NCBI GenBank assembly: GCA_015068645.1
Contig: SVKD01000003.1
Coordinates: 88,471 to 140,899, forward strand
Source: Oscillospiraceae bacterium
GTDB taxonomy: Bacteria > Bacillota > Clostridia > UMGS1840
Length of the DNA stretch: 52,429 bases
Direction of reading: 5' to 3'
This document shows, piece by piece, positions 11,391 through 48,215 of the stretch. Numbering within the stretch: position 1 is the stretch's first letter; each line of letters begins with the position of its first letter. The translations under genes were made by a program, and so were the position numbers. Under the pieces are notes generated by a model. That model was given only the letters and a program-made list of their open reading frames with translations, did not search any database and was not told the DNA's origin.

Positions 11391-11430
11391 AAAAAGGACT
11401 GAATTCACAATGAAATTCAGTCCTTTTTTT
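11391..11430. terminator. Bidirectional intrinsic terminator
   Basis: AAAAAGGACTGAATT pairs with AATTCAGTCCTTTTT, with an A-tract on one side and T7 on the other. It serves the plus-strand pair and overlaps the stop codon of the minus-strand 49-aa gene. Confidence 0.92.
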
Positions 11431-11578
11431 ATACCACTTGTTTTATCATCACAAATTCCACTTTTTTATCGGGATGCATTGCTTTTACCTGCTTTTTGGC
11501 TTCGGTTTTGGTTTCGGCATCCACCACAATACGGTCAATTTTGCCATCGATTTCCACGATAATTTCATAGGATTTCAA
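11429..11578 (-). CDS. Small 49-residue protein of unknown function
   Basis: A short gene on the minus strand supported by complete expression signals. These are a sigma-A promoter (TTGACA, 17 bp, TACAAT at 11629-11657), a consensus AAGGAGG ribosome site about 10 nt before a TTG start at 11578, and a terminator at its end. The product begins (M)KSYEIIVEIDGKIDRIVVDA, continues ETKTEAKKQVKAMHPDKK and ends VEFVMIKQVV. It looks like a small beta-alpha-beta protein with a basic helix in the middle. No family is recognised. It runs divergently from the adjacent tyrosine recombinase gene. Confidence 0.78.
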   Translation of the reverse strand: MKSYEIIVEIDGKIDRIVVDAETKTEAKKQVKAMHPDKKVEFVMIKQVV

Positions 11579-11628
11579 TCGGGTTACACCTCCTTGACAG
11601 GTTGGTTTAAAACATCAGAATTTTCTCT

Positions 11629-11657
11629 ATTGTACTCCCATAACTTCCATTTGTCAA
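11629..11657 (-). promoter_or_regulatory. Sigma-A promoter of the 49-aa gene
   Basis: Minus strand: consensus TTGACA (11652-11657), 17 bp, TACAAT (11629-11634), about 50 bp before the AAGGAGG-TTG start. Confidence 0.85.
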
Positions 11658-11670
11658 CTTTTTTCTGTAA

Positions 11671-12276
11671 TTGTATCATATCCGATATTTCAAAAAAACA
11701 AAAAACATCCGTTTACAAAATCGAACATTCTTCGACCAATGCAAAGAGCTGACAAAAGAAGAATACGAACGGCTTCTTTCTACAGCGCTCCACATGAAAA
11801 AACATCGGCTGTTCCTAATCCTTCAAACAATTTGCTCGACGGGAATCCGTGTTTCTGAGTTGAAATATATCACGGTATCAGCCATAGAAAAAGGATATAC
11901 AACTGTTCACTGCAAGGCAAAAATTCGAATGGTAATTCTTCCGGATAAACTATGTAATATTCTCTCCTCTTATTGTAAAGAAAAGCAAATTAAAAGTGGC
12001 TCAGTTTTTATCTCAAATCGCGGAAATCCGCTGGATCGAAGCAACATATGGTCGGAAATGAAGGAACTTTGCGATAAAGCACAAGTGCCTTGCATAAAAG
12101 TGTTTCCGCATAACCTCAGGCACCTGTTTGCACGCACTTATTATTCTTGCCAAAATGATGTGGTACGTCTTGCCGATATTTTAGGACACTCCAATATTAA
12201 CACCACACGGATTTATACCATGGAAAGTGGAGAAATTCATCGTAATCAAAGTCAAAATTTGGGCCTGATTCGTTAA
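11671..12276 (+). CDS. Short tyrosine recombinase, candidate DNA invertase of the adjacent switch
   Basis: Catalytic domain of a tyrosine site-specific recombinase, 201 residues. The catalytic set is present: Arg I in STGIRVSEL, the Lys region in HCKAKIRMVILP, HxxR in FPHNLRHLFARTYY, then LGHSNINTTRIY with the second His and the nucleophilic Tyr. The N-terminal SAM-like arm-binding domain of ordinary integrases is absent; the size matches the FimB/FimE inversion recombinases. The only available start is a TTG at 11671 with no clear ribosome site, so an N-terminally truncated integrase relic is a real alternative. Adjacent to its stop are two inverted 24-bp sites around a promoter, which favours a working invertase. 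No other phage or transposon genes are near. Confidence 0.7.
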   Translation: MYHIRYFKKTKNIRLQNRTFFDQCKELTKEEYERLLSTALHMKKHRLFLILQTICSTGIRVSELKYITVSAIEKGYTTVHCKAKIRMVILPDKLCNILSSYCKEKQIKSGSVFISNRGNPLDRSNIWSEMKELCDKAQVPCIKVFPHNLRHLFARTYYSCQNDVVRLADILGHSNINTTRIYTMESGEIHRNQSQNLGLIR

Positions 12277-12288
12277 CAAAACAACGCC

Positions 12289-12312
12289 ACAACATAATTT
12301 TCATTATGTTGT
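12289..12312. repeat. Left inverted site (IRL) of candidate invertible promoter
   Basis: 24-bp palindrome: arm ACAACATAA, 6-nt centre TTTTCA, arm TTATGTTGT. It starts 12 bp after the recombinase stop. It matches the reverse complement of 12477-12500 at 21 of 24 positions. Two of the three differences (positions 3 and 22) preserve arm pairing. The asymmetric centre gives the sites an inverted relative orientation. Confidence 0.75.
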
Positions 12313-12413
12313 TGAAAATAAGATAAATTGCTTACATACACATGTTCTTTAGAACAAAAACAAGCCGGAATGAGAAAAAGTTTTGACTTTTTTTTTCGTA
12401 ATTTGAAAATACA

Positions 12414-12442
12414 TTGACTTTTGCAAACAAAAGTGCTATACT
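12414..12442 (+). promoter_or_regulatory. Sigma-A promoter inside the candidate invertible segment
   Basis: TTGACT (12414-12419), 17 bp, TATACT (12437-12442), predicted start near 12449. It lies between the two inverted sites and points at the gene at 12529, so in this orientation the downstream operon would be ON. Inversion would aim it at the recombinase 3' end. Confidence 0.85.
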
Positions 12443-12476
12443 ATAGTTGTATAGCTTGGATAAGTTTACCTTTTTT

Positions 12477-12500
12477 ACCACATCATGAAAATTATGTGGT
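12477..12500. repeat. Right inverted site (IRR) of candidate invertible promoter
   Basis: Reverse-complement-related copy of the site at 12289. On the minus strand it has the same centre TTTTCA and a 13-nt identical core ACATAATTTTCAT, with arms ACCACAT/ATGTGGT. The palindrome extends through flanking T6/A6 to 13-bp arms (12471-12506). It lies in the predicted 5' leader, 28 bp before the ATG at 12529, and leaves the ribosome site outside the invertible segment. The T-run precedes the stem on both strands, so it is not an intrinsic terminator. Confidence 0.75.
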
Positions 12501-12528
12501 AAAAAACCAAAATAAAGGAGTTTTCCGT

Positions 12529-13389
12529 ATGAGAGAAAAAAAGGCGAAAAATAAAAACTCCAAAAAGAAAAAATGGTGGATAATTTTACTCATTCTTCTT
12601 GTACTATCCGTGGTTCTTTTGATTGGCGGTATCCATTTTTACCGTCATAACCAACGAACCATTGATGCGATCAGGCTGGCAAATCAGGAAGGGGAAGAAG
12701 GGTTAGAGCAAAAACAAAAAGAATTAACCGACGTATTTCACGAAACGGTGCTAAATATCCCCGATTCTCATTCAGAAATCTTAAACGAGCGTGACCACCG
12801 CAAATTAAAAGGCGGCGATCTAACTCCGGAACAAACCGCTGAAATTTTTGCAGAGGCAAGAAAACGCGCTGGAATTGAATTGGATGAAAATGGTTCTCCC
12901 ATCACAAATTCCGAAGAATCCGACGCACAAAACACTGCAGAGGATTCGACAACTGATACAGTCGCCACCCCCCAATCTCAAGAAACCCAATCAACCGAAA
13001 CAAATCAAGACAGTGAATCCCAAACTGAAACTTCCGCTGTTGAATATACCAATATCGACGCTTTGATTGAAGACTTTTATGTGCTGAAATCAAAATATCT
13101 AACAGGGTTGGAAGGAGTGCTTCGCCAAGGGAAAAATGAATGGCGCGCCAAGCCAAAATCAGAGCATACACTAACTGCCAGATTTCAGATGGCACAAAAA
13201 TGCATGAGCTGGGGCACTGCTTTGGAGGTTCAATGTGATGCCGAAATGAACATGCTGTTGGCAGAGCTGGAAAGTGCACTGATTGCCAACGGAGAAAGCA
13301 CCGCGCTTGTGGGTCAAATCAGAAGTTTATACGAACAGGAAAAAAGCGTCAAACGAGCAGCGCTGATTGGGGAATATTATCCCAAATAA
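12529..13389 (+). CDS. Membrane-anchored extracellular protein of unknown function, first gene behind the switch
   Basis: A 286-residue protein. A very basic cytoplasmic N-terminus (MREKKAKNKNSKKKKWW) is followed by one transmembrane helix (about 17-40) and an extracellular helical region. A Ser/Thr/Glu/Gln-rich linker (about 125-175) precedes a helical C-terminal domain of about 110 residues (IDALIEDFYVLKSKYLTGLE onward). The ATG at 12529 is chosen because AAAGGAG lies 8 nt before it. An upstream in-frame start would lie within the promoter. No known family is recognised. It is the first gene after the candidate invertible promoter and is followed closely by an SLH protein, so a cell-envelope role is inferred from context. 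Confidence 0.78.
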   Translation: MREKKAKNKNSKKKKWWIILLILLVLSVVLLIGGIHFYRHNQRTIDAIRLANQEGEEGLEQKQKELTDVFHETVLNIPDSHSEILNERDHRKLKGGDLTPEQTAEIFAEARKRAGIELDENGSPITNSEESDAQNTAEDSTTDTVATPQSQETQSTETNQDSESQTETSAVEYTNIDALIEDFYVLKSKYLTGLEGVLRQGKNEWRAKPKSEHTLTARFQMAQKCMSWGTALEVQCDAEMNMLLAELESALIANGESTALVGQIRSLYEQEKSVKRAALIGEYYPK

Positions 13390-13446: not shown

Positions 13447-15198
13447 ATGATGAAAAAGTTTTCTTGTGTATTGCTGGCTGTCATGCTGTTGTTCCAACTG
13501 GGAACCTCCGTTTTTGCAGCAAGCTACCATGACAATGTGAATGTTTCCGCTACTCTGCAGGTAGCACCCGCAGGAACCCCTATGTCAGAATCCACCCCCA
13601 ATGCCGCTTCCGTGTCTAAAACAACTGCAGAACCTTTCCCGGCATTTGATTTCAGATGTATTCTGAATATGGAACCTGTTCGCACCAAATTTAACGACTA
13701 TTACGCAAACTGGATTTCCATTTTAAACTATGTGGGTCCTTCTGACAGAATCGATGCGTTGAACACTGAACTGCAAGCAATGCATATTACCGGTTCTTTC
13801 ACCGTAGAATTTACTTATCCCAACACGATGGTAATGCCTGCTGAATTTTTGGTAGATAACCAGATGGTTGGCTTTGATGACAATGCTAAACTGATTTTCG
13901 GTAACGATACCCGTACCGTAACCAACGGCATCAACACCAATACCTTAACCATTACCGTTTCTGTGGTTGGCGTTGATGATAATGGCACCCGTCCCGGTTA
14001 TGTGTTGGCAAGTGACCTCTTTGCCAACAAAGATACCTATCTGGCAGACTTCAATGTAACCCTGCCCAATATCGGAACCACCGGTTACGGCGACCATCCC
14101 GTGTCCGGCAAATTAACCGGTATCACCTTAGCAACCGGCGATACCACTGATTTAACCATCAACTATCAGACCAATCCTGAATATGCAACTGCAACTGCAA
14201 CCGTTACCGAAAAAGGTAACCGTCCGGTTCCCACCAGCGCCCCCATTCCCACCAGCACTCCCATTCCCACCAGCACTCCCGCTCCCGACGAAGTCAAGTA
14301 TGCAGTAAACTTCTTTGTGAACGGTGAAACAGCTGACTGCAATCCTGTAACGAAACCGGAAGGCGCAATCGTTTCTTTATCCGATTTACCCATCCCCTAC
14401 CAGGATGGCTATTCCTTCAACGGTTGGTATACCGATAAAGAACTGACCAAGAAAGTAACGGCTGATTTCCCCCTGACGCAAGATGTGAATCTTTACGGTG
14501 CATTTGTAAGAAATCAGAGTGCACGGGAATTAAACGATGTTGACCATTTTGCATACATCATCGGTTACCCCGAAGGTGATGTAAAACCGGAAAATCCCAT
14601 CACTCGTGAAGAAGTGGCAACTATTTTCTTCCGTTTGTTAAAAGACGATGTCAGAAAAGCTTTGCTGGCGAAAGCCGGCTCCTTCTCCGATGTGGATGCC
14701 GACCGTTGGTCCAACACTGCGATTTCCACCTTGGCAGCCGGCAATTTTATCCATGGTTATGAAGACGGCGCCTTCCGTCCCAATGCCACCATTACCAGAG
14801 CAGAATTTGCAACCATCGCTTCCCGTTTGGATACTATGATGGAAAACCCCACGCATAACTTTACCGACCTGAACGGTCACTGGGCAGAGCAATCCGTTGC
14901 CAATGCCGTGGCAAAAGGCTGGATTACCGGTTATGAAGACGGCACCTTCCGTCCCGATCAGCAAATTACCCGTGCAGAAGCAGTTACCGTAATCAACAGA
15001 ATGCTGAATCGTTATCTGCATCAAGACGGTACTCATAAAGATGCCAATATCTGGCCCGATAATCCTCAGGATGCTTGGTATCACTTAGCAATTATTGAAG
15101 CCACCAACGGCCACGATTACGACAGAAATGAAAATTCCGTTTATGAAAACTGGTCGAATTTAAGAGAAAATCCCAACTGGAAAGCGTTAGAAGATTAA
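13447..15198 (+). CDS. Secreted S-layer-homology (SLH) protein with an InlB-type repeat
   Basis: Secreted surface protein of 583 residues. The signal peptide is MMKKFSCVLLAVMLLFQLG then TSVFAA. A globular N-terminal domain (about 30-260) follows, then a Pro/Thr linker of repeated PIPTSTP units (about 262-282) and one InlB B/Listeria-Bacteroides-type repeat ending SFNGWYTDKELT...NLYGAF. Three SLH motifs form the C-terminus (about 360-560), clearest in FIHGYEDGAFRPNATITRAE and WITGYEDGTFRPDQQITRAE; these normally bind pyruvylated secondary wall polysaccharide. AAAGGAG lies 9 nt before the ATG at 13447. It is co-directional with the anchored protein upstream and the glycopolymer cluster downstream, and likely in the same transcript. 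Confidence 0.9.
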   Translation: MMKKFSCVLLAVMLLFQLGTSVFAASYHDNVNVSATLQVAPAGTPMSESTPNAASVSKTTAEPFPAFDFRCILNMEPVRTKFNDYYANWISILNYVGPSDRIDALNTELQAMHITGSFTVEFTYPNTMVMPAEFLVDNQMVGFDDNAKLIFGNDTRTVTNGINTNTLTITVSVVGVDDNGTRPGYVLASDLFANKDTYLADFNVTLPNIGTTGYGDHPVSGKLTGITLATGDTTDLTINYQTNPEYATATATVTEKGNRPVPTSAPIPTSTPIPTSTPAPDEVKYAVNFFVNGETADCNPVTKPEGAIVSLSDLPIPYQDGYSFNGWYTDKELTKKVTADFPLTQDVNLYGAFVRNQSARELNDVDHFAYIIGYPEGDVKPENPITREEVATIFFRLLKDDVRKALLAKAGSFSDVDADRWSNTAISTLAAGNFIHGYEDGAFRPNATITRAEFATIASRLDTMMENPTHNFTDLNGHWAEQSVANAVAKGWITGYEDGTFRPDQQITRAEAVTVINRMLNRYLHQDGTHKDANIWPDNPQDAWYHLAIIEATNGHDYDRNENSVYENWSNLRENPNWKALED

Positions 15199-33303: not shown

Positions 33304-36300
33304 TTACTTCACATATAAATCAATCAGTTCCAAAATGTAATCCCAGCTAAAGATTCCTTTTTCCACGGGGATTTTTAAGTATGCGCCATTTAATTCGATA
33401 AACTGTTCGTAAGTAACATACTGAGAAAAATCATCGTAGGTGTATAAGCCGTAGGATTCGATGTCGTTTTGGAAAGCATCGGTATCGTAACGGAGTTTTT
33501 CGCCCATCGGCATCCAGTTATACAAATCATCGGGAGGTGCTACTGTCAAAAGACCTTCTGCCAAAGCATTGAAGTTTCCGGCAGAGGTTAAAGAATATGC
33601 ACCGATGGTTTCCGTTGTTTTTTCTGCTTTGTCTAAAGTAACCGTGGTATAGCCGTCTTCGTGCATCTTCACAAAGGTATGTCCAATGTATTCTGCCATA
33701 TTGTCCATGGTGAGGTACACATATTGGTTCAAATCATAATCAAACACACCGTGGTCTTCGATTACTTTTAATACCGTACCGTCTGAGAAGGTTAAGTTGG
33801 CAACGGGATATTCTGCTACGCCATGATTTACCACCAGCGCCACATCTTTCGCTTCCATTTCACCTGTAAAGAAATTATAGGTCAAAATGGAATCCTCAGT
33901 AGTAATCTCTTTGATAGCTTTCTTCGTGCCGTCTGCCATAGTGATTAAGGTATCTTCACTAAAGCAACCGCCACTTGAGGAAGCAGAAACAGTTACATTG
34001 GAAGCAGGCATACTAAAGGTATAGGTACCGGCTGTGCTTTCGCTTAGTAAAGTATTTCCGTTTCCATCGGTCACCTTCAGGGATTTACTGTTATTCTGAG
34101 AGAAGGAAACAGTCACGGTAAAGCTGTCACCGTAATATGCAGTTTGTCCGTTGGTCACACCGGTTACGGTTGCATTGGATTGAGAAACAGTGATGGTATA
34201 GGGTGTTTTGACCCACTGTGCATATAAAGTGATGCTTTCATCAGGGGTGTAAGATGCACCTGCACCGCCGATTTTGGTGCCGCCCTCAGCTTGGGTAAAC
34301 CAACCCTGGAAGGTATATCCTGTGAGAGTGGGAGTGGGTAAGGTTAAGGGTGCGCCCATATAGGTCTGAGAATCGGTGGAACAGCTTCCGCCGTTGGCAT
34401 CATAAGTCACCACGGAAGGTGCTTCCCAATGGGCATACAAGGTGATATGTGCGGTAGGAAGATAGGTGTCATTTCCCATACCGATGAAAGTACCGCCGTT
34501 TTCTTCGGTATACCAGCCGGCAAATGCTCTTGCTGTGTCAGAGGGTAAGGGCAAGGTGAGAACAGTTCCCACATAATCCATAGAGGTGGGTGTTACGTTT
34601 CCGCCCGTTGGGTTGTAAGTTACGGTATAAACAGGGCTCCAGCCTGCATAGAAGGTGGTATTTTTGGTGGGATTTAAAATCACACCGTTCAACCCATAAA
34701 GCTTGGTACAAGCGGCATCTTCATACCAGCCTGTGAACCAATAACCCGATTTTTCTGGTAAGGGAAGAACGATTTGTTCTCCATTATAGTTTATAGTTTC
34801 GGGAGTTACGCTGCCACCCGTAGCATCCAAGGTCACGGTACAAGGTTTGCCCCACTGTGCATAGAGAGTAACATCACCGCCGGGAGTATATAAATCCCCT
34901 GCTCCGCCGACACGGTTACCCTGATAGGGAGCATCATACCAGCCGGCAAACACATACCCATAACGAGTGGGATTGGGTAAAGTCAATGTATTATAATGAT
35001 TGGTCTGATAACCAACACTCTGTCCGCATAAGCCCCCGTTGGCATCATAGGTCACGGTAGCAGACACGGTTGCAGAGAAAGTACCGGTGGGTTTGGTGAA
35101 ACTTGTCGCATCCACCCCGGACTTACCAAAGTTTACGGAACCCGAATTGATGACTACCCCGTTATTGCCGGTAAATTCGTAGTCATACACTCTCCAGATC
35201 TGACCGCTGGAAGCAGTACCACCGTCGTTTACTACATAGAAAATGTTTTTGTTGGTTTTAATCGAGCCGGAATGGGTAGAACCGCCTGCCGTTGCTTTGA
35301 CGTCCAGGTCAATTTTTAACACACCGCCATCCACCAGTTTTACGGTGATGATATGATAGCCTTTGGCTTCCCCGGTGGTATTTAAGTTTTCGATGGTGGC
35401 AGATACCACTTTTTGATAGGCGTTATCATCACCGTCAAATCTTAAATAACGGGTATCGCCCATATAGTCATAGATTTTTAAGCCTGCCAAGAAAGGCATA
35501 AACTGAATTTTATCGCCCAAAAGTGCTTTGTTGTAGTAAATCACCTGTTTCGTGGAATCAAACGAAAATTCCGCATTGGGGGTAGACGTGTCTTTTAATG
35601 CCACAGAAACCGGTAATTTTTTGGTGTAAACCACCGTTTGTGCCACACTTTCTCCGTTTTCGTTATAGAATATGGTATCGGTTAAGGTGTAGGTCACAAT
35701 GTATTCTTTTGTTTCGGATAGGGTGAGTTTTCCGTTGGTTAAAGAAACTTCATCACCGTTTTCATCGGTGCAGGTAATTTGGGTCTGCAAATCCTGACCG
35801 CTATACTTATTGATGTCAAATATTTTAGTAAAATCAATCTCAAAAGATTCTCCTGCAGGAATCATCACTTTTAAGGTGTCAGAATCCATATAGCAATATT
35901 TGTTGCAACCGTCCGTGTTGGCGATATACTGACCGCCCAAGGTGGAATTGGGATAAATCTGAGGTTCATATAATCCGTTTCCACCGCAGATGTACGGAAT
36001 CACGCCGTCAGTTTCGGGATTGTAACGGTAATCGGCAGTAACGGCACTGCCTGCCGCCACGGTATACACTCTGCCGGTTGCTCCCAAAAAGCTTACCTTG
36101 TTTAACGCATAAGGAATTTCCGCCTTGTTGGTACGCTCATCAATGATGTTGGCAGGATAAGAGGTGATGTATGCCATTCCCAAGTTTACAGTATTTTTAC
36201 CGTTTATGGTATGCTGATATGCACTTTCCTTTAATGCTACCTCCAACACGCTCTTAGCATAACTGTTGGAAACAGAAGAATGATCGCTGGTTACCCAGTT

Positions 36301-39300
36301 ATATTGTCTGAGGTCCCCTTTTAAACGAATATAGGGATTGGATTTGGTATCCGCATCCCCCACTGCAATCCCAAGACCCATCACGTTTTTGGAAGTATCG
36401 TAAGAAGAGGTGGTCATATACTGAATGGTGGTCACATCTTCTAAGGTAACAGTGAATTCGTCGGAACTTCTTACAATCTGAATGTTGGCAAAGCTTCCGC
36501 ATTCGGTAACGGTGTTTTTCACGGTGGCATTTCCGCCACCGATAAAAATGTTACATCTTGCACCATAAATATAACAGTTAGAAATGGTGGAATCATCAGT
36601 TAAAAGGACTGCAGATTTAAAGTAGTCATAACCCGATGCATCGGAGGTATATAAATAAGATTCGGGGAAAATATCGCAGATAATTCTGGTGTTATCTAAA
36701 ATACCGCCTTTGGATACATTGATAAAACCGGTGGTCAGCAGCTTAAGGCCGGGATTACCTTTTCCTGCACAGGTTACGGTAAAGCCGTTGCCGTAAAAAG
36801 CATAACCGTTGGACACGTTAAAGGTGCCGGAAATATCGTTTAATAATACCACGTTATTGGCAGTTGCCGATGTGGCAGTGGTCACGTTCTTCGCATCCAC
36901 AATTTCTAGGTACAAAGAATACGGAGTACTTTCTTCATCCGAAATGGTCACTTTTACCACGCCGGTACCGCTGAATTTTAAGGTAGACTTGGTCCAATCG
37001 GTGTTTTTGGTATAGGTAGCAGAAACCAAAGGAGTGTTTGCCAGAGGTTCCACTGCTACGTTTACGGTACCAACACTCACACCGTCTAAAGCTTTAAAGA
37101 TGCTTCCCAATGCCACGGTATTCTGATTGCCGATTCTATATAAATAATCTTCGTGATTTACAAATTTGGTATCAAATTTTGCAATCTGAGGAGGTGCTAA
37201 TTCTGTTACAGTTACGGTAGCAGAGGTTGCGGTACAGTAAAAACCGTCAGTAATGGTAACGGTATAAGTGCCGCCACCGCTAAAGGTGACAATACCGTTA
37301 TCCCAGGTTGCATCCTTCGTGAAGGAAGAAGCACCGGTTACAGACACAGTAGCATCTTTAATCAGATTACCGTTTGCGCTGAACAGCTCTCCTAAAGTTT
37401 TCGTTACTGCAACACCTTGTTCAGTTTCATAAGCTAAATCAGATTTTGCAGTCCATTTGTCAACTGCAGCAGGTTCTTTTACCGTAACGGTAGCGGTTGC
37501 TACGTTACAGTAGAAGTTATCGGTTGCGGTAACGGTGATGGTACCTAAACCTTCAACAGTTACTTTACCGTCTGCATAGGTACCGCCGGTTACAGTAATT
37601 TCTTTCACTTCATAGCCGTTGGTATCAAATAAATCTGCAAAGTCTACGGTGTACTTACCGCTTTCAATAGTAGCTAAAGTATGAGTTACTTCGATATCTT
37701 TGCCAATGAATTTGTCTACGTTTGCTGCATCGTTTACAACGATAATAGCAGTTGCTTCGTTACAGTAGAAGTTATCAGTAACAGTTACGGTGTAGGTACC
37801 AATGGTTCCGGGAACGGTAATAACGCCATCAGCATAGGTACCGCCATTATCTACAGTTACTTCTACTGTTTTGATAATTGCACCGTCAATTGCGGTGAAC
37901 AGGTCAGCGAAGTTTACGGTCTGGTCTTTGCCAACAGTATCAACGGTTAAGGTGATTTCTTTATTAGTTGCATTCCATTTATCAATGTTTGCAGGCTCGT
38001 TTACGGTTACGGTTGCGGTTGCAACATTACAGTAGTAATTATCGGTTACAGTGATCGTTTTTTTGCCAAAACCGTCCACGGTGATTGTGCCGTCTTCGTA
38101 AGTTGCACCGGTGACAGTCAGGTTATCCATATCTACGGGAACGCCGTCGATTACGGTGAACAGCTCGGCAAAGTCATAGGTTACGGTATTTGCTTCCGCG
38201 GTTTCTAAGGTGTGAGTATAAGTCACATCTTTACCAATGAATTTGTCGATGGAAGGAATGTTTTTGGGTGTGAAGGTGTAGGTTCTGCCAATTACGTAAG
38301 ATTCGTCTTCGTTATTGGGGTTATACATCTTCAGTGCCAGAGTTACTTCTAAATCGGGATTCGCTACTAAAAATTCAGGTGCGAAGAAGATCCCGCAATC
38401 AAAATCCTTTACCCGTTCATACACTTCCTGATAGGTGTATTTGAGACCGGGTTTTCCGTAGGCTTCTGCCGCGGTTTCCATAATTTTTAAGGGAGTACCG
38501 GGGGTCAAGGTGATAGCCATTTTGGGCACACTTACCCAAGCAGGACTCCAGGAATCGTACTGACCTGCCAGATAGCCGTCACAGGTTCCGTCTGAATGGA
38601 AGGTAGCAGTCTTATTGATCATGATTTCATAATCTGCATACCAGTCTCCAAACACTGCCAACTGAGATTCTGTAGAAGGGTCTGCTTTGAAGTTTAATGC
38701 AAAGGTTAAATCTACATCCTGGATTGCTTCTACATCCAGCTCGGTAACCGTTGCTGTGGGTAAGCAGAATTCAAAGTCTTTTTCTGCGATCGTATAGATA
38801 TTGCCATTTTCAGGATTTACCAGTACCAGTGCTAAGGAAACCTCCAGACCATCATTTTCTTTTAAGAAATCATGGGAGAAGTTTACGCCACAGTCAAAAT
38901 CTTTTACGGTTTCTGCTACATCCCTGTAAGTCACGGTTAATCCGGCAGCATCCATAATGGAAACAGGTGTATTTGCAGTTACCGCTAAATCGGTTGCCGG
39001 AATTTTTACAAATTCAGGACCGAATTCATCATACTGGCCGATTAAGTAACCGTCACGGGTACCGTCGGCATTGAAGGTTGCATCTTTGTTCATTTTGAAT
39101 ACAAAGTCTGCTTTCCAGTCGCCGTAGAATGCTAACTGTTCATCAGTTACTTCATCTGCTGTGAAGTTCAAAGCAAAATCCGCATCTTCTGCTTCGATTT
39201 CGGTAACAGTGGCTGTCGGGAGTTCCTCCAGCAGGTCACGTTCGATAATGCCGGGATTGGTTAACGGAACTAAAGAATCAGTACCCTCCCAGCAGAATAC

Positions 39301-39645
39301 TTTTAATAATTCGGTATCTGCTACCGAAATTTCTCTGCTGTATTGGTTTTCTTCCCCTGCCACAGCAGAAACTGTGGTAATAGGCTCTGTTTTACAAAGC
39401 ACACCGTCTGCAGTGTAGTGAGAAACAATCACCTGCGCCGAATTCTTTTCGGTTGGGGTAAAGGTGATGTTGGCAGTCACCGTATCGCATCCGTCCAAAG
39501 CGGTAATCACTTCTCCCCCTTCATTATAAAAGGAAACGCTTCCTAAATCGGAAGCCGTTGCAGCAAGGGCAGAAAATACCCCCAAAAGCAACGTAAGTGC
39601 AGTCAAAAGGCAAAGTAGTTTTTTTATGTTTTTCTTGGTTTTCAT
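33304..39645 (-). CDS. Secreted Hint-domain surface protein, middle paralog (2113 aa)
   Basis: Signal peptide (about 1-31), then the shared FYN module (about 35-137). Two repeats of about 155-165 residues beginning PTATVTE follow (about 141-462), then four Ig-like repeats each ending in a TVTDNFYCN-type motif (463-815). The YLYRIGNQN domain (about 836), a beta-helix-like region (about 930-1130) and four InlB-type repeats (1530-1812, for example GWYDAP...TLYAQW) come next, then a Ser-rich linker. The 220-residue Hint C-terminus (bases 33307-33966) starts at Cys1894 (CFSEDTLITMADG), with His1965 and NFNALAEGLLTVAPP; I count 175 of 220 residues identical to the 1066-aa paralog. AAAGGAC precedes the ATG. 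No SLH, LPXTG or other anchor is visible. Confidence 0.86.
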   Translation of the reverse strand: MKTKKNIKKLLCLLTALTLLLGVFSALAATASDLGSVSFYNEGGEVITALDGCDTVTANITFTPTEKNSAQVIVSHYTADGVLCKTEPITTVSAVAGEENQYSREISVADTELLKVFCWEGTDSLVPLTNPGIIERDLLEELPTATVTEIEAEDADFALNFTADEVTDEQLAFYGDWKADFVFKMNKDATFNADGTRDGYLIGQYDEFGPEFVKIPATDLAVTANTPVSIMDAAGLTVTYRDVAETVKDFDCGVNFSHDFLKENDGLEVSLALVLVNPENGNIYTIAEKDFEFCLPTATVTELDVEAIQDVDLTFALNFKADPSTESQLAVFGDWYADYEIMINKTATFHSDGTCDGYLAGQYDSWSPAWVSVPKMAITLTPGTPLKIMETAAEAYGKPGLKYTYQEVYERVKDFDCGIFFAPEFLVANPDLEVTLALKMYNPNNEDESYVIGRTYTFTPKNIPSIDKFIGKDVTYTHTLETAEANTVTYDFAELFTVIDGVPVDMDNLTVTGATYEDGTITVDGFGKKTITVTDNYYCNVATATVTVNEPANIDKWNATNKEITLTVDTVGKDQTVNFADLFTAIDGAIIKTVEVTVDNGGTYADGVITVPGTIGTYTVTVTDNFYCNEATAIIVVNDAANVDKFIGKDIEVTHTLATIESGKYTVDFADLFDTNGYEVKEITVTGGTYADGKVTVEGLGTITVTATDNFYCNVATATVTVKEPAAVDKWTAKSDLAYETEQGVAVTKTLGELFSANGNLIKDATVSVTGASSFTKDATWDNGIVTFSGGGTYTVTITDGFYCTATSATVTVTELAPPQIAKFDTKFVNHEDYLYRIGNQNTVALGSIFKALDGVSVGTVNVAVEPLANTPLVSATYTKNTDWTKSTLKFSGTGVVKVTISDEESTPYSLYLEIVDAKNVTTATSATANNVVLLNDISGTFNVSNGYAFYGNGFTVTCAGKGNPGLKLLTTGFINVSKGGILDNTRIICDIFPESYLYTSDASGYDYFKSAVLLTDDSTISNCYIYGARCNIFIGGGNATVKNTVTECGSFANIQIVRSSDEFTVTLEDVTTIQYMTTSSYDTSKNVMGLGIAVGDADTKSNPYIRLKGDLRQYNWVTSDHSSVSNSYAKSVLEVALKESAYQHTINGKNTVNLGMAYITSYPANIIDERTNKAEIPYALNKVSFLGATGRVYTVAAGSAVTADYRYNPETDGVIPYICGGNGLYEPQIYPNSTLGGQYIANTDGCNKYCYMDSDTLKVMIPAGESFEIDFTKIFDINKYSGQDLQTQITCTDENGDEVSLTNGKLTLSETKEYIVTYTLTDTIFYNENGESVAQTVVYTKKLPVSVALKDTSTPNAEFSFDSTKQVIYYNKALLGDKIQFMPFLAGLKIYDYMGDTRYLRFDGDDNAYQKVVSATIENLNTTGEAKGYHIITVKLVDGGVLKIDLDVKATAGGSTHSGSIKTNKNIFYVVNDGGTASSGQIWRVYDYEFTGNNGVVINSGSVNFGKSGVDATSFTKPTGTFSATVSATVTYDANGGLCGQSVGYQTNHYNTLTLPNPTRYGYVFAGWYDAPYQGNRVGGAGDLYTPGGDVTLYAQWGKPCTVTLDATGGSVTPETINYNGEQIVLPLPEKSGYWFTGWYEDAACTKLYGLNGVILNPTKNTTFYAGWSPVYTVTYNPTGGNVTPTSMDYVGTVLTLPLPSDTARAFAGWYTEENGGTFIGMGNDTYLPTAHITLYAHWEAPSVVTYDANGGSCSTDSQTYMGAPLTLPTPTLTGYTFQGWFTQAEGGTKIGGAGASYTPDESITLYAQWVKTPYTITVSQSNATVTGVTNGQTAYYGDSFTVTVSFSQNNSKSLKVTDGNGNTLLSESTAGTYTFSMPASNVTVSASSSGGCFSEDTLITMADGTKKAIKEITTEDSILTYNFFTGEMEAKDVALVVNHGVAEYPVANLTFSDGTVLKVIEDHGVFDYDLNQYVYLTMDNMAEYIGHTFVKMHEDGYTTVTLDKAEKTTETIGAYSLTSAGNFNALAEGLLTVAPPDDLYNWMPMGEKLRYDTDAFQNDIESYGLYTYDDFSQYVTYEQFIELNGAYLKIPVEKGIFSWDYILELIDLYVK

Positions 39646-39865: not shown

Positions 39866-42800
39866 TTACGGATTTACATATAAGCCAATTAACTCAACAA
39901 TGTAATCCCAGGTGAAGATTCCTTTTTCTACAGCAATCTTTAAGTATGCGCCGTTTAATTCGATAAACTGTTCTTCAGTTACCAAACCGCCGAAATCTTC
40001 TAAGGTGTATAAACCGTAGGTTTCGATATCTTTTTGGAAGCTTTCGGTATCGTAACGGAGTTTTTCACCCATTTCAATCCAGTTATAGAAACCAGCAGGA
40101 GGAGCAAGTGTCAGCATACCTTCTGCAAATGCGTTGGCATTGCCTGCAGAGGTTAAGGAATAGATTCCCAGGGTTTCTTCAGTTTTTTCTGCTTTCACTA
40201 AGGTTACCAAGTCATAACCTTCCGCATTTTCTTTCACAAAGGTGTGACCAATGTATGCATCCATATTATCTATGTTAATGTATACATAATCGTTTAAGTC
40301 ATAGTCAAACACACCGTGGTCACCAACGATTCTTAAGGTAGTGCCGTCGGAGAAGGTTAAGTTTGCCACTGCGTAAGTATCCACGCCGTGAGAAATTAAG
40401 AGTGCCACATCTTTTGCTTCGTAACAGCCTGTAAAGAAGTTGTAGGTTAAGATGGTATCATCCTTGGTAACATCCTTCATTGCTTTTTGGCTGCCGTCAC
40501 CCATGGTGATTAAGGTATCTTCGGTAAAGCAGCTACCGCTAGAAGATGCGGTTACGGTAACGGTCTGCGCCGGCATGTTAAAGGGTGAATTATAGGTAGT
40601 GCCATCTGCACCCTTAATGGTGGTGGAACGGCTGTTACTCTGAGAGTAGGTTACGTCAACAGTTACCTGAGTGCCGTAGGGAATGTTAATGGAACCGTTA
40701 TTAGCAACGGTGGTATTGTTAATTTTTACAGTTGCATTTGTAGCAGAAACTTTTACAGTGTAGCTACCAATCGTCCACTGTGCATATAAGGTAATGTTGG
40801 AAGACGGAGTGTATTCTGCGCCTGCATTCCCAACCTTGGTGCCACCGGATGCCGCAGTATACCAGCCGTTGAAGGTGTAACCGGTTCTGGTGGGGTTGGG
40901 TAAAGTAAGAGCAGTTCCTTCGTAAGTTGCAGAAGCAGGACTTACGCTACCGCTGTTTGCATTGTAGGTCACGGTGTAGGAAATTGCTTCCTGCCACTGT
41001 GCATACAGGGTGATTGCGCCGCCCGGATGATAACCTTCACCCGCATCACCGATTTTTTCGCCACCGGTGGGTGCAGTGTACCAACCTAAGAACCAGTAAC
41101 CGTCACGACTTGCATTGGGTAAGCTTAATGCAGTGCCGTTATAGGTCTGAACGGTAACAGAAGCAGTACCGCCGTTTGCGTCATAACTTACATCACAAGG
41201 TTTGCCCCACTGTGCATATAAGGTGATATTTGCGGAAGGAGCATAGGAATCTCCTGCACCGCCCACACGGGTTCCGCCGGTAGGAGCAGTGTACCAACCT
41301 GCAAACAGGAATCCGCCACGTTTGGGAGTGGGCAGAGTTACGGAAGTTGCAGCTGATGTTGCATAACCAATGGTCTGTACACAGGAACCGCCATTTGCAT
41401 CATAGGTTACCGTTGCTTTAATGGTGGTACTAAAGTTTCCGGAAGGAGTGGAAACACTGGAACCGCTGGAATTAAAGGTCTGCTGAGCAGAGGTAATGGT
41501 TACCCCGTTGTTACCGGTAAAGGTGTAGTAATCCACATACCAGTATGCAGAGGTGGTGGTGGAAGCAGAGTTACTGGTACCACCGCCGTTTACAAAGTAA
41601 ACAGTGTTGTCTTTGGTTTTAATAGAACCGGTATAGGTGGAAGCACCGCCACTGTTTGCACGTGCTAAGAATCTGGTGTTAATCACACCGCCGTCAGTCA
41701 GTTTTACTTCTACCAACGCTTTGTTGCTGGAATAGCCGGTGATGGTGATGGATGCAATTTTGTTGAAATCAGAATCACCGTTGAAACGTAAGTATTCGCT
41801 CTGACCGTTGTGGTCATAAATCTGTAAACCTTTTAAGAAGGGTAAATACTGTTTTACATCGCCTAAGGTAGGTTTATAGTAACCCATTTTCTGGCTGTCT
41901 TTGTTGAATGCAAAACGTGCATCGGGAACTGCATTGTCTTTTAAGGAAACAGATAAGGTAATCGGGAAGGTATAAGTTACGGTATCTGCCACAACCTGAC
42001 CGTCTTTAGCATAGAACAAAGTATCGGTTACGGTGTAGGTTACGGTGTAGGTTCCTTTGTTGGTTAAGGAAACGCTGGTTCCGGATACAGGAACTGCCAC
42101 GCCGTTTTCATCCACACAGGTAATGGTCATACCTAAATCTTCGCCGGTGTATTTTTCAATATTTACCAGACCTGCTAAATCTACCACTTTGGTATCACCG
42201 TCGGTGAACAGAATGTTCACGGTTTTGCCGGTGGTGTATAAATATTCGTCACAACCTTCCACGTTTTCGATATACTGTCCGCCTAAATCATCGTCAAATT
42301 TAAACTGGGGTTTATACAGGTCAGTTGCGATGGTTTTGTCTGCATTTTCGTAATCAGAGAAAATCTGGGTGTCGACTGCACCGGATAAGGAGTATGCCTG
42401 ACCGGAAACACCGCTCACGGAAATACTATCCAAAGCATAGGGCAAGCCGGTCTGATTGTCGATGATTGCAGTTTTGGTATTTAAGTATACAATACCCATA
42501 TTTACGCTGGTTTGACCATTCACACTGTGCTGATATTTGGAAACAGCCAATGCGCTGTTGATAGCAGATCTTGCATAAGAATCGCTTACTGCATTCATGT
42601 CATCAGCATTCACCCAGTTATACTGTTTTAAGTTACCTTTTAATACCAGGTTCGGGTTGGTAGAAGTGTTGGGACCAACAATCACACCAAAGCCCAGCAT
42701 GGTGTTGTTTTTCAGGCTGTCGTTTGCATAAACGGTGGGTTTGTTCTGATACTGAATGGTAGTAACGTCTTCTAAGGTTACGGTGTATTCACTACCGCTT

Positions 42801-45800
42801 TCAATCTGCATATTGGAAAGTACGCCTGCTTCCAGAATGGTATCCTTCACGGTCACATTACCGGCACCAACATAGATGTTGTTTCTTGCGCCGTAAATAT
42901 GACAGTTGGAAATGGTGGAATCACCACTTACCGCTACTGCGGAAAGCTGATAGTAGTATCTGATTTTAGAAGGATCTTTTGAATCCACTTCATAGTAATC
43001 TTCCACCTGGTTGGAGTACAGTGCTGCAATGGGGAAGATGGCTGCACGAACTACGGTGTTTTCTAAAGTACCGCCTTCTTTTACGGTGATAATACCCTGT
43101 TTTAAACCGCTACCTAATCCTAAGTAACGTCCGTCATTGGTATTGCTTACGGTAAAGCCGTTGCCATAGAAGGTGTTATCACCGGATACGGTAAAGCCAT
43201 TTAAGGTACTGCAATTATTAACCAATACGGTATTGCCGGAAATGGTACCGTTTACGCCGGTTACGTTGGTTGCATCCACAACTTCTAAGTACAGTTCGGT
43301 GGGTAAGCAAGCAGGATCAGCTGTGTCCACGATAGACACTTTTACCACGCCGGTACCGTTAAATTTCAGAGTAGTTGCAGTAATATCTGCAGTTACCTGA
43401 GATGCTTCCACAGGAGTTACAGTTACGGTTGCATTGGTGGGAACAAAACCGTCAACAGGAACGAAGATTTTTTCAATCGCAACTTCGTTTTGGTTACCGA
43501 TACGGTACATAAAGTCGGTTTTGTCAAATTTCTTCACGAATTTTTCTTCGGGAATAATGTCGGGTTCTTCCACGATAACAGTTGCAGTTGCAGTGTTACA
43601 GTAGAAGTTATCGGTTACGGTTACGGTGTAAGTGCCTGCACCGGTAAAGGTGAACACGCCATTTTCGTAAACGCCGTCACCGCCTACGGTGAGTTCTTTT
43701 ACAGTATAGCCGTTATTGGTGAACAATTCATCAAAGGTTACAGTTACGGTGTTTTCGCCGTAAACTAATTTTTTGGAAACGGTTTGACCGGTCCATTTAT
43801 CAACATTAGCAGGTTCTTTTACGGTAATGGTTGCAGTTGCTTTGTTACAGTAGAAATTATCAGTTGCGGTAACGGTGAAGGTACCGATACCGGTAACAGT
43901 GATTTTGCCGTCTGCATAAGTTGCACCTTCCACGGTGATGTCTTTTACATCATAACCGTTATTGGTGAACAGTTCGTCAAAGTTGTAAGTTACAGTGTTA
44001 CCTTCGATAGTATCTAAGGTATGAGTGTAAGTTACAGCTTTACCGGTGAACTTGTCAACATTTGCAGGTTCATTTACGGTAACAGTTGCAGTTGCAATGT
44101 TACAATAGAAGTTATCGGTTGCGGTAACGGTGTAAGTACCTGCTTTTCCGGGTACGGTTACAACGCCACCTGTAAAGCTTGCTCCGTTATCTACGGTTAC
44201 GGAAATCGCTTTGATTACTACACCTTCAACTGCGGTGAATAAATCTTCAAAGTTTACGGTCTGATCCTGACCAACAGTATTAACGGTTAAGTCAATGGTT
44301 TTGTTGGTAGCAGTAAATTTATTTACATTTGCAGGAGCGTTTACGGTAACAGTTGCAGTTGCAATGTTACAGTAGAAGTTATCGGTTGCGGTAACGGTAA
44401 TAGTTCCTAAACCGGTAACAGTGATTTTACCGTCTGCATAAGTTGCGCCTTCCACGGTAATATCTTCCGCTTTTACATTTGCACCTTCAACGGTTTCAAA
44501 CAGGTCTGCAAAATTGTAAGTTACAGTGTTACCTTCGATAGTATCTAAGGTATGAGTGTAAGTTACGGTGTTACCGGTGAATTTGTCCATCGCAACAGGA
44601 GCATTTACAACTACAGTTGCAGTTGCAGTGTTACAATAATAGTTATCGGTTACGGTGATGGTTTTGGTACCGAAACCTTCTACGGTGATTTTGCCGTCTG
44701 CATAAGTTGCGCCGGTTACGGTGATGTCTTCCATTTTCACGGGAACGCCGCCGATGGTGTCAAACAGCTCAGCAAAATCATAAGTTACGGTATTTGCTTC
44801 CACGGTGTCTAAGGTGTGATTATAGGTCACAGCTTTACCGATGAATTTGTCGATAGAAGGAATGGTTTCAGGAGTGAAGGTGTAGGTTCTGCCAACCACG
44901 TAAGATTCGTTTTCGTTATTGGGATTATACATCTTCAGTGCCAGAGTTACTTCTAAGTCGGGGTTAGCAACTAAAAATTCGGGAGTAAATGCTAAACCGC
45001 AGTTAAAGTCTTTTACAGAAGTAACGATATCTGCGTAAGTCAGTTTCAGACCGCTCTGACCCATGAGAGCTGCTGCAGTTTCCATTACTCTTACAGGAGT
45101 ATTTGCTTCTAAGGTTGCATCTTCAAAGGGAACGGATACCCAGTTTTTGCTCCATGCGTCATACTGACCGGAGAGGAAACCGTCTGCATTGCCGTTTGCA
45201 TTGAAGGTTGCGGTTTTGTTTACGGTTAATTCGTAATCTGCATACCAATCACCGAACATCAGGAGCTGTTCCTGAGTAGATTCGTCTGCTTTAAAGTTTA
45301 ATGCGAAATCTAAATCAACGCCTTCGATTGCTTCAACGTCCAGTTCAGTAACGGTTGCAGTGGGCTGTTTCCAGGTTCTGGTGATTGCATCACCGATTAC
45401 ATAGGATTCAGCGGGATTTAAGGGATTGTAGATTCTTAATTCCACGGTAGCGGATACGCCATCGTTTGCTGCTAAGAACTCTTTAGAGAAGTTGATACCG
45501 CAATCAAAATCTTTTACGGTTTCAACGATATCACGGTAGGTAACATCCATTCCTGCAGATTCTAACACGTTAATAGTGGTATTTGCAGGAACTACTAAAT
45601 CGGTTGCAGGTAATTTTACCCATTCTGCGCCGAATTCGTCATACTGACCCAGTAAGTAACCATCTTTTTCGCCGTTTGCGTTCAGGGCTACATCTTTGGA
45701 AATGGTTACAGCATAATCAGCTTTCCAGTTACCGAAGGTTTTTAACTGTTCTTCGGTTGCTTCGTTTGCTTTAAAATTCATTGCAAAGTCTGCTTCCACA

Positions 45801-48127
45801 TCCAGGTTGTTGGTGTCTAAGTGAGTTACGGTTGCGGTGGGTAAAGTCCAGTTATAAGTATAAACATCGCCGATGATATAAGATTCTGCTTCGTTTGCAG
45901 GGTTATACATCTTCAGGCACAGGGTTACTTCCAGACCGTCGTTTGCTGCTAAAAATTCGGGAGAGAAATAAATACCGCAGTCAAAGTCTTTTACTTTGTC
46001 ATACACTTCCTGATAGGTATATTTTAATCCCGGTTTACCGTAGGTTTTTGCAGCAGTTTCCATAATCTTTAAGGGAGTGCCGGGAGTTAAGGTGATATCC
46101 ATTTTCGGAACCTGTACCCAAGCCGGGCTCCAGGAATCGTACTGACCTGCCAAATAACCATCTTCGGTGCCGTCTAAATTAAAGGTTGCAGTTTTATTGA
46201 TGGTGATTTCGTAATCTGCATACCAGTCGCCAAACATTGCAAGCTGAGATGCTGTGGAAGGATCCGCTTTGAAGTTTAACGCATAAGTTAAGGGAACATC
46301 CTTAATATCTGCCACATCGAGTTCGGTTACGGTTGCGGTGGGCAGGGTGAAATCGAATGCTTTTTCTGCGATGGTGTATGCTTCGCCGGTAACAGGATTT
46401 ACGATTACCAGTGCTAAGGATACTTCTAAACCGTCATTTGCTTTTAAGTATGCTTCGGTAAAGTTAACACCGCAATTAAATTCTTTTACGGTTTCAACTA
46501 CGTCACGGTAGGTTACATCCATACCTGCTGCATCCATAACGGAAACAGGTTCTCCTGCAGTCACACTCAGGTCGGTTGCCGGAATTTTTACAATTTCGGG
46601 ACCGAATTCGTCATACTGACCAACTAAGTAACCGTCTTTGGTGCCGTTGGCATTGAAGGTTGCATCTTTGTTGGTAGTAAATACAAAGTCTGCTTTCCAA
46701 TCGCCGAAGGTTGCTACCTGAGATTCGGTTGCTTCGTCTGCTTTGAAGTTTAATGCGAAGTCTGCTTCTGCTACGTCAATTTCGGTAACAGTTGCAGTAG
46801 GCATGGTAAAGTCAAATGCTTTTTCCGCGATGGTGTATGCTTCGCCGGTAACAGGATTTACGATTACCAGTGCTAAGGATACTTCTAAACCATCATTTGC
46901 TTTTAAGTAGCTATCTGCAAAGTTTACGCCGCAGTCGAAATCTTTAATGGTTTCAACTACATCGCGATAAGTAACGTTCATGCCAGCACTTCCCAAAACA
47001 TTTACGGGAACGCCTGCGGTAACGGTTACATCCGCTGCGGGAACTTTTACAAATTCGGGACCGAATTCGTCATACTGACCAACTAAGTAACCGTCTTTGG
47101 TGCCGTTGGCATTGAAGGTTGCATCTTTGTTGGTGGTAAATACAAAGTCTGCTTTCCAATCGCCAAAGGTTGCTACCTGAGATTCGGTTGCTTCGTCAGC
47201 TTTAAAGTTTAATGCAAAGTCTGCTTCTGCTACGTCAATTTCGGTAACAGTTGCAGTAGGCATATTAAAGTCAAATGCTTTTTCTGCGATGGTGTAGGTA
47301 TTGCCGTTTTCGGGATTTACCAGTACCAGTGCTAAGGATACTTCTAAGCCATCATTTGCTTTTAAGTAAGCATCTGCATAGTCAACACCACAGTCGAATT
47401 CTTTTACGGTTTCAACCACATCACGGAAGGTAACATTCAGACCTGCTGCATCCATAATGGATACGGGAGTACCTGCAGTAATTGCGAAATCGGTTGCAGG
47501 AACTTTTACAAATTCAGGGCCGAATTCATCGTACTGACCAACTAAGTAACCGTCTTTAGTGCCGTTAGCATTGAAGGTTGCTGCTTTGTTGGCAGTAAAT
47601 ACAAAGTCTGCCTCCCAATCACCGTAGAATGCCAACTGTTCATCAGTTACTTCGTCTGCAGCGAAGTTTAACGCAAAGTCTGCATCGGTAGAAATTGCAG
47701 TCACGGTTGCGGTGGGAAGTTCTTCTAATAAATCACGTTCAATCGTGCCCACATTGGTTAAAGGAGCGAGAGTTGCTTCGTCCCAAGCGAACACTTTCAA
47801 TAAATCGGTATCGGCTACCGAAATTGCAGAGGTAGTAAAGTTCGCAACTACGCCTGCAGTCATACTAACAGAATCAATAGATTCCATTTTTTCAAGTTTA
47901 CCGGTTTCGATATCGTAATGAGCTACCATTACGCTTGCGGTACCGGTTTTACTTGCGGTGAAGGTCACGTTGGCATAAAGGTTGTCCACGCCATCCAACT
48001 GAGTTGCTACGCTGTTATCTTCAGCATTGTAGAACGCAATTGTACCAAGCTCATTTGCATAAGTTGCAAATGTGAACATGCTTGCCAACAGGGACATTGC
48101 GAGAAGAAGACTGAATAGTTTCTTCAA
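39866..48127 (-). CDS. Secreted Hint-domain surface protein, longest paralog (about 2753 aa)
   Basis: Signal peptide MKKLFSLLLAMSLLASMFTF and onward. I prefer the TTG at 48127 because AAAGGAAG is ideally spaced for it; a GTG at 48136 overlaps that ribosome site. Next is the FYN module (about 27-130), then six repeats of 153-167 residues beginning PTATVT (about 136-1085) and five Ig-like repeats ending in YCN motifs (1085-1520). The MYRIGNQN domain (about 1542), a beta-helix-like region (about 1600-1790) and three InlB-type repeats (about 2235-2450) follow. The Hint C-terminus (bases 39869-40531) starts at Cys2533 with His2604 and keeps the conserved tail, ending LYVNP. Repeats 2 and 3 are nearly identical in DNA. 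No wall anchor is visible. Likely a long stalk displayed or released through Hint chemistry. Confidence 0.86.
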   Translation of the reverse strand: MKKLFSLLLAMSLLASMFTFATYANELGTIAFYNAEDNSVATQLDGVDNLYANVTFTASKTGTASVMVAHYDIETGKLEKMESIDSVSMTAGVVANFTTSAISVADTDLLKVFAWDEATLAPLTNVGTIERDLLEELPTATVTAISTDADFALNFAADEVTDEQLAFYGDWEADFVFTANKAATFNANGTKDGYLVGQYDEFGPEFVKVPATDFAITAGTPVSIMDAAGLNVTFRDVVETVKEFDCGVDYADAYLKANDGLEVSLALVLVNPENGNTYTIAEKAFDFNMPTATVTEIDVAEADFALNFKADEATESQVATFGDWKADFVFTTNKDATFNANGTKDGYLVGQYDEFGPEFVKVPAADVTVTAGVPVNVLGSAGMNVTYRDVVETIKDFDCGVNFADSYLKANDGLEVSLALVIVNPVTGEAYTIAEKAFDFTMPTATVTEIDVAEADFALNFKADEATESQVATFGDWKADFVFTTNKDATFNANGTKDGYLVGQYDEFGPEIVKIPATDLSVTAGEPVSVMDAAGMDVTYRDVVETVKEFNCGVNFTEAYLKANDGLEVSLALVIVNPVTGEAYTIAEKAFDFTLPTATVTELDVADIKDVPLTYALNFKADPSTASQLAMFGDWYADYEITINKTATFNLDGTEDGYLAGQYDSWSPAWVQVPKMDITLTPGTPLKIMETAAKTYGKPGLKYTYQEVYDKVKDFDCGIYFSPEFLAANDGLEVTLCLKMYNPANEAESYIIGDVYTYNWTLPTATVTHLDTNNLDVEADFAMNFKANEATEEQLKTFGNWKADYAVTISKDVALNANGEKDGYLLGQYDEFGAEWVKLPATDLVVPANTTINVLESAGMDVTYRDIVETVKDFDCGINFSKEFLAANDGVSATVELRIYNPLNPAESYVIGDAITRTWKQPTATVTELDVEAIEGVDLDFALNFKADESTQEQLLMFGDWYADYELTVNKTATFNANGNADGFLSGQYDAWSKNWVSVPFEDATLEANTPVRVMETAAALMGQSGLKLTYADIVTSVKDFNCGLAFTPEFLVANPDLEVTLALKMYNPNNENESYVVGRTYTFTPETIPSIDKFIGKAVTYNHTLDTVEANTVTYDFAELFDTIGGVPVKMEDITVTGATYADGKITVEGFGTKTITVTDNYYCNTATATVVVNAPVAMDKFTGNTVTYTHTLDTIEGNTVTYNFADLFETVEGANVKAEDITVEGATYADGKITVTGLGTITVTATDNFYCNIATATVTVNAPANVNKFTATNKTIDLTVNTVGQDQTVNFEDLFTAVEGVVIKAISVTVDNGASFTGGVVTVPGKAGTYTVTATDNFYCNIATATVTVNEPANVDKFTGKAVTYTHTLDTIEGNTVTYNFDELFTNNGYDVKDITVEGATYADGKITVTGIGTFTVTATDNFYCNKATATITVKEPANVDKWTGQTVSKKLVYGENTVTVTFDELFTNNGYTVKELTVGGDGVYENGVFTFTGAGTYTVTVTDNFYCNTATATVIVEEPDIIPEEKFVKKFDKTDFMYRIGNQNEVAIEKIFVPVDGFVPTNATVTVTPVEASQVTADITATTLKFNGTGVVKVSIVDTADPACLPTELYLEVVDATNVTGVNGTISGNTVLVNNCSTLNGFTVSGDNTFYGNGFTVSNTNDGRYLGLGSGLKQGIITVKEGGTLENTVVRAAIFPIAALYSNQVEDYYEVDSKDPSKIRYYYQLSAVAVSGDSTISNCHIYGARNNIYVGAGNVTVKDTILEAGVLSNMQIESGSEYTVTLEDVTTIQYQNKPTVYANDSLKNNTMLGFGVIVGPNTSTNPNLVLKGNLKQYNWVNADDMNAVSDSYARSAINSALAVSKYQHSVNGQTSVNMGIVYLNTKTAIIDNQTGLPYALDSISVSGVSGQAYSLSGAVDTQIFSDYENADKTIATDLYKPQFKFDDDLGGQYIENVEGCDEYLYTTGKTVNILFTDGDTKVVDLAGLVNIEKYTGEDLGMTITCVDENGVAVPVSGTSVSLTNKGTYTVTYTVTDTLFYAKDGQVVADTVTYTFPITLSVSLKDNAVPDARFAFNKDSQKMGYYKPTLGDVKQYLPFLKGLQIYDHNGQSEYLRFNGDSDFNKIASITITGYSSNKALVEVKLTDGGVINTRFLARANSGGASTYTGSIKTKDNTVYFVNGGGTSNSASTTTSAYWYVDYYTFTGNNGVTITSAQQTFNSSGSSVSTPSGNFSTTIKATVTYDANGGSCVQTIGYATSAATSVTLPTPKRGGFLFAGWYTAPTGGTRVGGAGDSYAPSANITLYAQWGKPCDVSYDANGGTASVTVQTYNGTALSLPNASRDGYWFLGWYTAPTGGEKIGDAGEGYHPGGAITLYAQWQEAISYTVTYNANSGSVSPASATYEGTALTLPNPTRTGYTFNGWYTAASGGTKVGNAGAEYTPSSNITLYAQWTIGSYTVKVSATNATVKINNTTVANNGSINIPYGTQVTVDVTYSQSNSRSTTIKGADGTTYNSPFNMPAQTVTVTASSSGSCFTEDTLITMGDGSQKAMKDVTKDDTILTYNFFTGCYEAKDVALLISHGVDTYAVANLTFSDGTTLRIVGDHGVFDYDLNDYVYINIDNMDAYIGHTFVKENAEGYDLVTLVKAEKTEETLGIYSLTSAGNANAFAEGMLTLAPPAGFYNWIEMGEKLRYDTESFQKDIETYGLYTLEDFGGLVTEEQFIELNGAYLKIAVEKGIFTWDYIVELIGLYVNP
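44870..47720 (-). repeat. Six tandem in-gene repeats of about 459-500 bp
   Basis: Coding repeats of the longest Hint protein, each starting with a PTATVT motif near 47720, 47262, 46803, 46343, 45842 and 45362. Matching points in units 2 and 3 (for example 46601/47060 and 46371/46830) are exactly 459 bp apart and the DNA is almost identical over long stretches. Later units are more diverged and slightly longer. Confidence 0.88.
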
Positions 48128-48215
48128 TAGGGCCACTTCCTTTCTTTTTACACAAGATATATATGATTACATTTTTATTCTCAAATATTCCTATGGGATT
48201 CATTTGTGCACTTTC

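Follow-up and report, generated by a model that had tools for sequence, protein, structure and literature searches.

A fim-like promoter switch of a clostridial recombinase family, probably fixed ON upstream of SLH and exopolysaccharide genes

In the fim switch of Escherichia coli (FimB/FimE, fimS), a promoter lies in an inverted segment, the recombinase gene adjoins it, and a surface structure is encoded downstream. FimB-type invertases have about 200 residues and function without a SAM-like domain. The cwpV switch of Clostridioides difficile, as described in the available part of the report, is a 195-bp inverted segment with imperfect 21-bp repeats 5' of a cell-wall protein gene; its recombinase RecV is a XerC/D-type tyrosine recombinase, and recV is not near cwpV but works from afar (PMC2784873). 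Among inversion-positive Firmicutes samples, 14 of 15 were Clostridia, according to the accessible text of PMC5903667. The main text of a further report ties inverton group 139, with 32 of its 33 invertons from Clostridia, to tyrosine recombinase group 35; a tyrosine-type recombinase lies near nearly all members, inversion was seen in reads, the setting is the hCom2 gut community, and in Clostridium sp. D5, given as an example, about 205 bp separate the 26-bp repeats (PMC11892184, available part). Published work on locked or broken recombinase switches, as far as its available text goes, concerns mostly E. coli and C. difficile.

The locus compared here with these systems lies in a stretch of 52,429 nucleotides from contig SVKD01000003.1 of an Oscillospiraceae bacterium, hereafter the window. 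Positions count from its first letter, and G, C and L handles denote genomes, contigs and loci. The features are as follows.

11671..12276, plus strand: tyrosine recombinase open reading frame, 201 aa, TTG start, PF00589 only
12289..12312, plus strand: putative left recombination site, dyad ACAACATAA-TTTTCA-TTATGTTGT
12298..12303, plus strand: asymmetric 6-nt centre TTTTCA of the left site, presumed crossover region
12313..12476, no strand: candidate invertible segment, 164 bp, ON orientation at present
12366..12405, plus strand: predicted hairpin with a T-rich 3' arm, possible terminator 5' of the promoter (weak evidence)
12414..12442, plus strand: TTGACT-17-TATACT promoter directed at the gene at 12529, consensus match, inside the segment
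12477..12500, minus strand: putative right recombination site, reading ACCACATAATTTTCATGATGTGGT on the minus strand
12486..12491, minus strand: asymmetric 6-nt centre TTTTCA of the right site
12514..12520, plus strand: ribosome-binding site AAAGGAG of the 12529 gene, outside the segment
12529..13389, plus strand: first gene served, 286 aa, no Pfam family, hydrophobic N-terminal stretch, orthologue in G002
13450..15198, plus strand: S-layer homology (SLH) protein, PF00395
15297..28858, plus strand: exopolysaccharide genes, from Pfam matches

A sequence scan reproduced all coordinates that the first-pass annotation had given for two inverted 24-bp sites, and likewise the promoter that it had placed in the 164 bp between them, aimed at 12529. 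The recombinase frame stops at 12276, with 12 bp between it and the left site, as that annotation had it, and the ribosome-binding site of the 12529 gene does lie outside the segment. The gene content of the proposed SLH/exopolysaccharide operon is borne out by Pfam matches, which in the exopolysaccharide part cover a sugar transferase, glycosyltransferases, EpsG, LicD, a flippase, a NAGPA protein, CpsB/CapC, Wzz and an AAA_31 ATPase. Past the operon, two very long minus-strand open reading frames occupy 33304-39645 (2113 aa) and 39866-48136 (2756 aa). Proteins of the 12529 type and SLH proteins occur near each other again at G000:C6:4645-6844 (in this same genome), G003:C14 and G001:C32, and may form a paired surface module.

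Compared in inverted orientation, the two sites match at 21 of 24 positions; 13 consecutive nucleotides are identical, and the centre is TTTTCA in both. The site pattern, allowing up to three mismatches, occurs twice in the window (none expected from 100 shuffles) and twice in the whole 1.76-Mb genome, where this pair is its only occurrence. The left site alone already forms a dyad, with 10 of 12 arm pairs matching, and both sites are predicted to fold as hairpins. Their mismatches, one in the 18-nt core and three in the 24 positions, are inside the family range (L047, L010, L051); we rejected them as a sign of decay, relatives with intact recombinases being equally mismatched. The segment folds with z of -1.1 on the plus strand and -2.4 on the minus strand, and 38 of 53 family segments reach z values under -2 on one strand or the other (30 shuffles each), which is only suggestive of a conserved terminator within such segments.

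A search with the 201-aa recombinase against 60 genomes and GTDB contigs placed 41 relatives in frame, of which 38 were testable after dropping L015 (the same gene as L065) and the contig ends L016 and L037. An inverted site pair lies just downstream of the recombinase in 36 of the 38, the exceptions being L008 (in G004) and L066, a recombinase fragment; L063 was counted as paired by one site scan and not by the other, and the pairs of L012, L017 and L056 are short or of another sequence. Searching 391 Clostridia genomes gave a second sample of 30 loci, which left 21 testable new loci once seven repeats of earlier loci, L104 (the L038 gene) and L127 (a contig end) were dropped. The pair recurs in 20 of them with 19-24 matches, and the one miss, L133, is on a contig ending 266 bp past the stop. 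At 20 distant XerC/D-like control loci, the best pair reached 19/24 and a family-type dyad was present in none.

In the family layout the recombinase comes first, and a pair of inverted 24-bp sites, in most loci no more than about 100 bp further on, encloses a segment of roughly 120-390 bp. Most loci have sites of the form ACCACATAA-N6-TTATGTGGT or close to it; at L009 the arms match at 20/20. Centres are highly diverse (28 different 6-nt centres in 33 loci), and the two sites of each pair have the same centre, as crossing over there requires; operators and terminators would have no need of it. The window shares the defining traits of a recombinase at least 50% identical and an ACATAAT-N4-ATTATGT-like pair just downstream, and departs from the family in having no full-length recombinase with an N-terminal SAM-like domain. 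Family recombinases occur in 60 of the 391 sampled Clostridia genomes. Two genomes, G109 and G315, have six each, and some Clostridia may run many independent surface switches. At L008, L037, L046 and L048 the recombinase stop codon falls inside the left site (the protein ending Thr-Thr-stop), which would put site and C-terminus under joint constraint. A Pfam scan of the first downstream genes (28 loci, 29 proteins) found many secreted or surface products: SLH (L010, L013, L062), collagen-like with or without cohesin (L039, L041, L052, L053), BspA-type repeats (L045, L047), dockerin (L049) and Big_2 (L040). Products not obviously of the surface are YpsA (L009), Band 7 (L018), a serine recombinase (L048) and a lyase (L055), and nine proteins have no Pfam family.

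Promoters scoring at least 10/12 are present in 50 of 53 segments, the window's included, against 5 of 20 control intervals. By promoter direction, 13 segments are ON (away from the recombinase), among them that of the window, 31 are OFF (towards it), 6 have promoters on both strands and 3 have none. Three locus pairs carry their segments in opposite orientations: L120/L122 (190/231 identities in reverse; recombinases 500/569), L013/L111 (162/193; recombinases 502/568) and L058/L061 (164/206; recombinases 503/569; downstream 512/655). The forward scores of all three are much lower than the reverse ones, and L013 is in G003, of the same genus as the window. Since homologous segments face opposite ways in related genomes, the alignments tell us that inversion has happened in the recombinase family. 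The comparison of orientations among relatives, proposed as a check in the first-pass annotation, therefore upholds its invertible-promoter reading at the level of the family, together with the common layout and the identity of centres within pairs; the segment is found in both orientations across relatives, and this species is represented by one genome.

The window recombinase is the unusual part of the locus. PF00589 spans residues 26-184, and the catalytic domain is complete; the N-terminal SAM-like (core-binding) domain found in the ~280-aa family is absent. Relatives are mostly of 270-310 aa and carry that domain. Neither the TTG at 11671 nor the ATG at 11794 has a Shine-Dalgarno sequence, and one of at least 5 nt precedes 31 of 35 family relatives (a count that omits L015, L016, L017, L063 and L066, with L003 and L008 outside the 35). 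The 391 Clostridia genomes contain 93 family matches at E 1e-60, a limit that disfavours short copies. One of these, G326:C14, has its start cut by a contig end, and among the other 92 only the window copy is without the N-terminal part; the alignment of G031:C86 begins at residue 44, but its reading frame stays open further upstream. There are also shorter recombinase fragments, namely L066, G050:C53 and one in G031:C86. Judged by these alignments, the window recombinase belongs to a XerD/XerA-like family of ~280 aa and has been truncated at its N-terminus. The missing N-terminal piece was searched for in the window and in the genome and not found. An inversion breakpoint cutting the gene was considered as the cause and is unproven, because no second half was found. 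A minus-strand small gene of about 50 codons (11428-11580), with a ribosome site and a TTGACA-17-TACAAT promoter and conserved in G002, adjoins the point at which the N-terminus is missing. A search of this genome for a second copy of the recombinase family returned none; its two other recombinases, on contigs C18 and C11, are XerC/D-like and 29-35% identical to the window's family member.

The recombinase had been called FimB-sized, which at 201 aa it is, the FimB-type model having a length of 200. A FimB identity does not follow: it scores 42.8 bits against NCBIfam NF007370 (cut-off 221) and 27.3 bits against NF007371 (cut-off 222), which we take to be the FimB/FimE-type models, and the size reflects truncation. 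The catalytic domain deviates at 1 of 69 columns conserved at 90% or more across the family (L015, L017, L063 and L066 omitted). So little change argues against decay of the gene, unless decay set in very recently.

Other members of the genus place this truncation in context. In G002 (77% complete, with one contig at this locus) the operon occupies the same place, and window positions 11429-11664 match at 89% and those from 12516 onward at 72-82%, with the 851 bp in between replaced by 326 bp carrying a fixed TTGACT-17-TATAAT. The G002 interval does not align significantly with the window segment alone (66/1000 shuffles reach the score); the whole interval scores 76, which 0/200 shuffles reach and which compares with a maximum of 71 in 652 tiles, a weak sign of a recombinase remnant. 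G004 (L008) keeps a recombinase (70%) whose ATG is in a different frame from the remainder of the gene; a single site follows. Aligned together with its flank, this site matches the right site and leader of the window (score 70 versus 29.5, sd 4.9, for shuffles; 0/1000). Beyond it, the operon is mostly missing as far as Wzz. Compared with the window, G004 has a block from HU to lysS (L078:9387-10802) in reverse, and one of the breakpoints lies immediately 5' of the recombinase. G001 and G003 have intact switches, and there the 12529 gene has distant relatives only. The first-pass annotation had named, as telling against its reading, a recombinase that persists after its sites are lost. This is not the pattern of the family, but G004 does keep a recombinase with a single site left. 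The simplest reading of these sequences is that the switch at this operon is being lost in the genus and that the window is at an early stage, facing ON; the order and age of the losses we infer.

We thus favor, with a probability of about 0.6, a fim-like invertible promoter of a clostridial family that is here fixed ON or nearly so. The cassette, of a kind widespread in Clostridia, has a XerD/XerA-like tyrosine recombinase gene and then a segment with one promoter between inverted sites, and crossover at the 6-nt site centre would flip this segment. The surface genes downstream would be ON when the promoter faces away from the recombinase and OFF when it faces back. In its present ON orientation, the promoter would serve the operon starting at 12529, including the SLH and exopolysaccharide genes. 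With the N-terminal core-binding domain and the ribosome site lost from the resident recombinase, and no other family member in the genome, the switch is most likely fixed ON. The truncated enzyme makes ON/OFF subpopulations in this species doubtful.

The main competing account is that of a fully working ON/OFF phase switch, in which the 201-aa recombinase is a minimal FimB-like enzyme that still flips the promoter. Enzymes of the FimB type have about 200 residues without such a domain, so the 201-aa enzyme could be active, and the complete catalytic domain with its single changed column, the identical site centres and the 200-aa length of the FimB-type model are all consistent with this. We regard it as possible but not favored, since all intact relatives have the N-terminal domain, the recombinase is without a ribosome site or the usual start codon, and this locus has eroded in both G004 and G002. 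Somewhat more doubtful is the specific proposal that a 280-aa XerD-like invertase, on losing its core-binding domain, gave rise to the 201-aa protein as a minimal but functional recombinase, with the catalytic domain kept by selection; this would be a natural second route to a FimB-sized enzyme.

Flipping could also come from elsewhere. The genome does contain two distant recombinases, the XerC/D-like proteins of C18 and C11, and recV works from afar in C. difficile (PMC2784873, available part). Their identity of only 29-35% to the family member, and the absence of such sites beside them and beside comparable proteins elsewhere (0/20), make flipping in trans very improbable. We give equally little credence to the idea that the dyads are operators of a DNA-binding regulator or leader-RNA hairpins with an incidental recombinase. 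In its favor, both sites fold as hairpins and the mRNA leader would contain the right one, but the pairs track the recombinase in 36/38 and 20/21 loci, against 0/20 controls, segments are found inverted, and centres vary between loci while being equal within pairs, for which operators have no need.

The finding places an envelope operon of an uncultured member of the Clostridia under a recognisable switch class. It also supplies a search rule for such switches in raw genomes: a recombinase, then paired dyads with a matching centre. The genus shows stages of switch loss at one locus, so it becomes testable whether lineages drop coat bet-hedging through a broken recombinase, with the promoter left facing ON.

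Set against the described systems, the window has the working layout of the E. coli fim switch (in part PMC2784873), as the first-pass annotation proposed: an inverted site pair with a common asymmetric centre, a consensus-matching promoter inside the segment, its target's ribosome site outside, an adjoining recombinase and surface genes downstream. Its recombinase nevertheless lies off the FimB/FimE branch (43 and 27 bits versus cut-offs of 221 and 222). The likeness to cwpV that was proposed alongside fails on architecture, and the window is not of the cwpV/RecV type: in the available description, the cwpV promoter is outside the switch and recV is distant, whereas here the promoter is inside and the recombinase 12 bp away (PMC2784873). 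A literature search with the half-site letters returned unrelated papers only, as far as their available text goes, and the accessible text of PMC5903667 defines no such recombinase-site family. The window family probably matches inverton group 139, whose geometry and taxa fit in a comparison made by main-text description, not by sequence; a truncated recombinase and a frozen state are not mentioned for group 139 in the available text (PMC11892184). The inverton kind is therefore known, and the window copy, with its truncated enzyme, would be a new and possibly frozen member.
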